Virus record (IMG/VR): IMGVR_UViG_3300043410_000094
Span: 1-29,039 of that record
Origin: a virus
Strand: one strand, 5' to 3'
DNA length: 29,039 nucleotides
Positions 28,184 to 29,039 of this stretch are shown one piece after another. The translations under genes were made by a program, and so were the position numbers. The notes under the pieces are model-generated. The model was not told the origin of the DNA and ran no database searches. It saw nothing but the letters and a program-made list of their open reading frames with translations. Each line of letters opens with the position of its first letter. Within the stretch, counting starts at the first letter, position 1.

Positions 28184-28405
28184 ATGGACGTTAAGCAAGC
28201 AGAGGCACACTTTGGAAGCCGTAGGAAGCTGGCAGAGGCGTTAGGCATCACTTCTCAGGCAATTAGCCAGTGGGTCAAGCGCAAACAGATACCGGAAGGC
28301 ATAGCGTACAAGCTAGAAGTCATTACCGGCGGCGCTTTGAAGGTCAATCCGAATGACTATATTTCCGTCAAGCAAATGGTGGCAGAGATCGTCCCACAGC
28401 AATGA
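28184..28405 (+). CDS. Cro-like repressor (helix-turn-helix)
   Basis: A 73-residue protein of the P22-Cro type: MDVKQAEAHFGSRRKLAEAL, GITSQAISQWVKRKQIPEGI, then AYKLEVITGGALKVNPNDY. The HTH spans about 12-37, with the recognition helix SQAISQWVK. The segment IPE--AY-LE-[IV]T-GALK matches P22 Cro closely (61 residues there). AGGAGG seven bases upstream is an excellent ribosome-binding site. It is the first rightward gene after the control region and should bind the GTTAAC-type sites there. No CI partner is present in this window. Its stop overlaps the next ATG as ATGA. Confidence 0.85.
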   Translation: MDVKQAEAHFGSRRKLAEALGITSQAISQWVKRKQIPEGIAYKLEVITGGALKVNPNDYISVKQMVAEIVPQQ

Positions 28406-28815
28406 GAACGGCCTACGAGACACAAGCCGACACGGACAGAGAGAATGCCATTGCCGAACGGTTTGCGTTTGCGTGGGGCTGTAAATTCGTTTCTATGCCT
28501 CGGTTCTATCCTGTGGATAAATTGATCTTAAAGGACAAGCCGCGGGCGTGGGCTGAGATAAAACGCCGTTACCGTAGTTTGCGCCAGTATCCCGACGTTT
28601 GGCTAAGTCTGCATAAGACCATCTACGGTCAACAAATGTCACAGGTCACAGGACTGCCGTTCTTTTTCCTAGTGCAGTTTGATGATTGTCATGCGTACAC
28701 AGAGATAGCTGGCAAGTATCCGGTGGGCTACGGCGGCAGGAAGGACAGGGGGGACTGGCAGGACATGGAAGCGTGTATCGAAATACCTGTTGACAAGTGG
28801 AAAGTTCTCAAATAA
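28402..28815 (+). CDS. PD-(D/E)xK-like nuclease-fold protein
   Basis: A 137-residue protein with YPVDKLILKDKPRAWAEIKR near 36-55: a D39 in a strand, then E52-x-K54, the arrangement of PD-(D/E)xK nucleases. It continues YPDVWLSLHKTIYGQQMSQV and FFFLVQFDD, then GGRKDRGDWQDMEACIEIPV. The same order (EVK-like motif, YP---[IV]SLHK, PFF-VV, GGRKDRGD-QD-EP--[IEH]IP) is found in small phage proteins of unknown function. Nuclease activity, perhaps resolvase- or end-processing-like, is inferred; the family has inactive members too. It is coupled to cro by ATGA and is the last gene before the structured terminator. Confidence 0.65.
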   Translation: MRTAYETQADTDRENAIAERFAFAWGCKFVSMPRFYPVDKLILKDKPRAWAEIKRRYRSLRQYPDVWLSLHKTIYGQQMSQVTGLPFFFLVQFDDCHAYTEIAGKYPVGYGGRKDRGDWQDMEACIEIPVDKWKVLK

Positions 28816-28843
28816 TGTGTCGGTGTCCGAGAGAAAGATCGGC

Positions 28844-28933
28844 CGCGTGTGGAAGCGCGAATAGCAGAACGAAGAACCCCTTAGCATGGGTTTCGGTTGT
28901 TCGGAGTTTGTTCTGCTGCTCCCTTCCACCGCG
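28844..28933 (+). ncRNA. Candidate structured RNA: long imperfect hairpin before the terminator
   Basis: Two nested helices: CGCG-T-GTGGAAG (28844-28855) pairs with CTTCCAC-CGCG (28923-28933) as 11 bp with one bulge, and AGCAGAACGAA (28863-28873) pairs with TTTGTTCTGCT (28907-28917) as 11 bp including one G-U. The 33-base apical region (28874-28906) contains the 5' arm of the terminator described next. No tRNA or known riboswitch was recognised. Possible roles are antiterminator, processing site or stable small RNA. Confidence 0.5.
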
Positions 28934-28965
28934 ACCTGAAACCCATGCTAGGGGGTTTTTCTTTT
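28875..28965 (+). terminator. Intrinsic terminator with a long stem, overlapping the RNA hairpin
   Basis: Bases 28875-28894 pair with 28938-28957 over 20 bp, with one G-U pair, around a 43-base loop, and are followed by TTTCTTTT. The loop contains the 3' halves of the hairpin at 28844-28933, so the two structures cross and are not simply compatible. The terminator ends the cro operon. Bases 28966-29039 hold no convincing gene; they contain AGTGGAAAGCGCAA (29006-29019), similar to TGTGGAAGCGCGAA (28848-28861). Confidence 0.75.
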
Positions 28966-29039
28966 GGGCTACACCGCATTGGGCAATGAGAGCAACAGCG
29001 ATGCGAGTGGAAAGCGCAACTGGTGGCTAAGGTCTGAAA

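Follow-up and report, generated by a model that had tools for sequence, protein, structure and literature searches.

We identified, just 3′ of a phage repressor gene, an RNA element of about 135 bases with two crossing folds, which, on balance, is probably a compact antisense attenuator of the C4/P4-CI type that is absent from Rfam. This attenuator model is built on the observed structure, conservation, gene order, C4-like layout and matched code swaps of the element, and from the sequence we infer its promoter activity, termination, the direction of the switch and action in trans. The window, which is the whole stretch of DNA that was analysed (29,039 nucleotides), is a 29-kb virus record of a P22-like phage, as indicated by domain matches to the P22 portal, Terminase_3, ERF, the YqaJ exonuclease and a P22_Cro/YdaS regulator. 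The order in the window is the cro gene (P22_Cro/YdaS family, E 2.6e-19; 28184..28405), a putative nuclease gene of the PDDEXK_14 family (E 3.7e-29; 28402..28815) and then the RNA element, all on the + strand. The lambdoid tR1/nut-like location proposed in an earlier reading of this DNA, made from the sequence only, was borne out: cro lies upstream of the element, and several relatives have a DUF1376-type replication gene immediately downstream of it.

Architecture of the element

The predicted promoter of the RNA, which is overlapped by the 3′ end of the PDDEXK_14 gene, consists of the -35 hexamer TTGACA (28790..28795) and, after a 17-nt spacer, a weak -10-like TAATGT (28813..28818) that retains 2-5 of 6 matches over the homologues. 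Transcription would start at about 28825, at P1, so that the RNA would begin with a hairpin. P1 (28826..28843) has a 5-bp stem and an A-rich loop, with compensatory changes in several homologues, and is followed by the hairpin P2a (28844..28859; CGCG-(UG)UGGAAG-CGCG), which carries target a (28849..28855) in its loop, and by the hypervariable target b (28859..28873). Targets a and b are the 5′ strands of the outer helix (P2) and the inner helix (P3) of hairpin A, respectively, and the 3′ strands are antisense a′ (28923..28929) and antisense b′ (28907..28921). The outer helix a:a′ (28849-28855 with 28923-28929) is of 7 bp, and the inner helix b:b′ (28859-28873 with 28907-28921) is pairable at about 14 of 15 positions, A28861 and C28919 being mismatched. 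The terminator stem T has its 5′ arm (28874..28899) inside the loop of hairpin A and its 3′ arm at 28932..28957, with 28875-28894 paired to 28938-28957, an apical extension of 28895-28899 paired to 28932-28936, and T 28937 bulged. It runs into the U-tract TTTTTCTTTT (28956..28965), and a U-run is also present in the homologues whose sequence extends that far.

The crossing hairpins were thus confirmed where the sequence-only reading had placed them, both helices being supported by the fold (z = -6.1) and by covariation. With respect to hairpin A, the a:a′ and b:b′ helices stood, whereas the outermost four pairs that had been assigned to it (28844-28847 with 28930-28933) were unconserved, and 28844-28847 pairs locally with 28856-28859 in P2a instead. 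The two structures had also been described as sharing bases in a crossing way; they do cross, but hairpin A and terminator T have no bases in common. The conflict between them is therefore one of topology and kinetics; A and T are not strictly exclusive, although a full-length pseudoknot would be topologically awkward.

Conservation, covariation and folding

By protein and pattern searches, the element was found in 35 other IMG/VR contigs, giving 27 distinct sequences in all. A TTGACA-like -35 was present in 26/26 homologues examined (TTGACA itself in 24 and a 5/6 match in the other two) at a near-fixed distance of 51-57 nt before target a/P2, and it was kept although the gene upstream of the element differs between homologues; the PDDEXK_14 gene is missing in several of them, where another gene directly precedes the element. 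Because the element always lies behind a consensus TTGACA promoter, it would be a leader and, at the same time, a short RNA gene in its own right, and the processed small RNA offered earlier as an alternative to a switch was partly right in this respect. In a relative (L005), the upstream PDDEXK protein is 98% identical to that of the window, yet its RNA element is of the other class, and hence the element has apparently been exchanged as a module.

The element itself had no Rfam match. DNA searches in annotated phages gave no match with the window element, none with the L049 element, and only 29-base matches at chance level with the L016 element, and the three matches of a genome-wide pattern scan did not contain the element. 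The element's model R1 also had no match in MW202520, MW202674 or Rhodoferax phage P26218, which are GenBank relatives of the window portal protein.

The 136-nt region folded with a z of -6.1, and 0/200 shuffles were as good. In an alignment of 19 distinct homologues, the 46 pairs of the crossing structure were formed in 95.4% of cells, compared with a shuffled mean of 83.0 ± 0.7 (0/500 reaching the observed value) and with 33-47% for slid structures. Compensatory changes, on which the earlier reading had staked its crossing hairpins beforehand, were present in both stems, changes on both sides of a pair being observed in 108 cells against a shuffled mean of 33, where the cell counts are not independent events because the contigs are mutually related. 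Double changes were seen at most P3 pairs, and a structure-anchored count, with class 2 included, indicated that most positions in the core of P3 have between three and five types of pair and that mispairs there are almost absent. Furthermore, about 14 distinct P3 sequences were present among the homologues, which argues for many independent changes. The a:a′ helix also covaries, with a GC-to-AU double change at its last pair in L044 and L048, as does P2a, with CGCC/GGTG in L047 and CTCG/CGAG in L049. The covariation indicates that both crossing structures are under selection. T by itself is a textbook intrinsic terminator, and an ordinary constitutive terminator between early genes, with hairpin A being incidental, would account for that part; this explanation is disfavoured by the covariation, P3 pairing having been kept through very many double changes, and is extremely improbable.

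The sequence-only reading had expected hairpin A to be complete before the 3′ arm of T is transcribed. In agreement with this, the RNA up to a′, without the T 3′ arm, was predicted to fold as hairpin A in 24/24 representatives, with a P3 of 10-13 bp, and, when the T 3′ arm was added, the minimum-energy fold changed to T in 23/24 representatives. It is nearly certain that this is the structure of a two-state RNA. A short alternative hairpin, S4 (28901..28922), overlaps P3 and, when T is formed, would present b′ as a loop. It was considered as a second proof of the exclusivity of A and T and was demoted to suggestive, being weak in about half of the homologues and convincing only in some families.

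Coordinated changes in b and b′

Two homologues (L045 and L046) share 99% identity upstream of the element and do not differ (100%) in the promoter, P1, P2a, T and a′, whereas their b and b′ are only 61-64% identical, with each pair still complementary. Such a coordinated swap would fit a recognition code or specificity determinant, as in immunity groups, and is less expected in a helix kept only for shape. This bears on the possibility that the element is a stable trans-acting small RNA, in which A and T coexist in one pseudoknot acting on another target or a protein, with constant termination and no switch. The predicted promoter, the 5′ hairpin and the terminator would all suit such an RNA, as would the conservation of both A and T without common bases and the strongly conserved letters, e.g., GCATGGGYTTCGGTTG. 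It is nevertheless unlikely, as a helix of 20-25 bp would need to be threaded through a closed loop, the swaps would be less expected of a purely structural helix, and the order of target and antisense is C4-like.

A remote version was found by reading by eye in the complete circular phage genome MW202520 (6530-6651), where model R1 had missed it; it has the same target-antisense-terminator order in other letters and lies between cro and a DUF1376 gene. The same genome carries an int-alpA RNA (RF02996) at 2423-2489. Among other phages with DUF1376 genes, no such element was seen in the stretches read of zth2-2 and Moraxella Mcat21; the DUF1376 gene abuts or overlaps the preceding gene in MW202722, phiAC-1, Mcat21 and IFTN2, and in Vibrio 1.003.O there are just 53 nt before it.

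Downstream genes and proposed mechanism

The next gene encodes a DUF1376-type replication protein in L005, L009, L013, L017, L024, L035 and L040, with its start 7-20 nt beyond that of the U-run, and the majority of class-1 relatives have their next good open frame some 220-430 nt further on. Between the element and the next gene, the window and several relatives have a Betaproteobacteria-1 RNA (RF02932), whose model matches a separate RNA starting at 28972 and not the crossing-hairpin element. In the window, this RNA comes directly after the terminator and is cut by the window end (28972-29039); full copies are present 3′ of the element in L015, L016, L018, L022 and L048, a further copy is at 4571-4691 of L004, and other copies are in the vicinity of primase-like genes in Burkholderiaceae genomes.

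In the attenuator that we favour, the predicted sigma-70 promoter would start an RNA of about 135 nt with, in order, a (in the P2a loop), b, the T 5′ arm, b′, a′, and the T 3′ arm with the U-run. In cis, pairing within one nascent RNA, of a to a′ and of b to b′, would give hairpin A, and the T 5′ arm would be caught in a closed loop, in which the 20-25 bp terminator could not wind up quickly, allowing RNA polymerase to read into the replication genes. In trans, a ready-made terminated copy, offering b′ and a′, would pair first with nascent a and b, which would block hairpin A and let the terminator close. The accumulating RNA would in this way shut its own operon, and recognition would be limited to phages that share its b code. 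A literature search found no description of this layout, with the antisense in the terminator loop and C4/P4-CI-like logic.

It is also conceivable that the short terminated RNA binds the read-through transcript and affects how this is translated or how stable it is, instead of where transcription ends, as reported for IsrK in Gifsy-1 (PMC4825925). In L017 and L024, the replication gene has its ATG 7 nt beyond the U-run start, and a Shine-Dalgarno-like AGAGG/AGGGG is part of the T 3′ arm, so that translation could be controlled too. An exclusively IsrK-like action is, however, rather improbable, given that the next good frame is so distant in most class-1 relatives and that none of 24 loci has a second target copy (a2/b2, or a seqA and seqC pair as in P4 CI), the upstream target being the only one.

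Phage context and significance

A search of 13 contigs, one of which (G011) has a 34-base terminal repeat and is therefore probably complete, gave no integrase, S24 repressor, serine recombinase or ParA, and no prophage copy of the element was present among about 770 bacterial genomes. The viral records G000-G013 are P22-like freshwater-type phages that have the Cro-like gene without a recognised S24 repressor, integrase or ParA. Lysogenic immunity is consequently just one reading of the role of the element, and early-gene shut-off or timing, or superinfection control, is equally possible. A bolder proposal is that of a one-RNA phage repressor, in which a transcript of about 130 nt would be sensor, topological antiterminator, terminator and self-specific trans-acting silencer at once, and the b/b′ code would set the immunity groups of phages that apparently have no protein CI repressor; we put this forward tentatively, as possible rather than probable.

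The loci of C4, P4 CI and IsrK are long and composed of several parts. For IsrK, a possible tuning of the leader terminator by the antisense part has been left open (PMC4825925). With all parts within about 135 nt and with naturally matched code swaps, the element would make such antisense tuning addressable with short templates. It would also supply Rfam with an RNA family that it lacks, point to attenuators that are specific and programmable, and offer phages without a recognised CI repressor a means of controlling early replication genes or of excluding relatives.

Comparison with known systems

The RNA switch proposed from the sequence only holds with respect to the two opposed structures and their position; the relation in sequences is to the C4/isrK/P4-CI antisense RNAs, which that proposal did not include, and its parallel with HK022 put did not survive. 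HK022 put is likewise a structured early phage RNA after cro, being composed of two stem-loops, with putR about 270 nt downstream of the PR start, and it occurs as putL and putR (PMC9378689). Identity with put was rejected because put needs one copy behind PL and another behind PR, whereas the element occurs once per phage record. Direct antitermination at RNA polymerase in the manner of put, with P1 and P2a as the two adjacent stem-loops at the transcript start, is very improbable for the same reason, and it would leave unexplained the conserved long-range b:b′ pairing around the terminator and the relation to C4.

That relation emerged from a covariance search of 401 Burkholderiaceae genomes, which gave two weak, short matches, both directly before an Rfam C4. 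At these distantly related loci (L063 and L064), the same 5′ module is followed by a terminator and then C4, and the strands of hairpin A are the leader targets a and b together with the C4 antisense b′ and a′; between the two loci, a matched change, GAGGC to GGAGC, is seen in the leader target, the C4 antisense and the second target. In a survey of 28 C4 loci, a- and b-type targets recurred in the leader, with TTGGNNN at the position of target a, a U-run lay between the leader target and C4 in most, and a second target followed C4. One Burkholderiaceae leader related to the window element matched isrK (E 8.3e-6) and c4-a1b1 (E 5.1e-5), both below gathering. About a dozen C4 RNA copies are present in one Burkholderiaceae genome (G052). 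The window element itself was not matched by the covariance models of C4 (RF01695; up to E 5) or of c4-a1b1 (RF03163) and isrK (RF01394; both up to E 10).

As in C4 of P1/P7 (RF01695, RF03163), b′ and then a′ are complementary to upstream targets a and b in the window, target a is in a hairpin loop starting with TTGG, an intrinsic terminator is within the unit and b is highly variable. In contrast to C4, the order in the window is a, b, T5′, b′, a′, T3′, which places the antisense inside the terminator loop rather than in a separate downstream C4 fold, and there is no second target before the gene. The C4 precursor of P1/P7 is reported to be processed by RNase P (PMC5320573). P4 CI is an antisense RNA processed out of the primary transcript, and by pairing with seqA and seqC it reportedly makes transcription of replication genes terminate prematurely (PMC4825925). 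The window layout would be consistent with antisense-dependent termination of this type: in both, an antisense segment of the transcript itself is proposed to govern early termination upstream of replication genes, although the window has one target only and its antisense RNA would stop at a terminator of its own. IsrK of Gifsy-1 (RF01394) resembles the element as a short phage RNA from leader termination, where the leader also reads through into the downstream operon, and differs in that the window antisense lies inside the short RNA, beside cro and replication genes instead of anrP. Finally, in the attenuators of the plasmids pT181 and pIP501, an antisense RNA on the nascent RNA stops antiterminator pairing, and the terminator forms; their antisense RNA comes from the opposite strand, whereas that of the window element would come from the same strand and the same promoter as its target.
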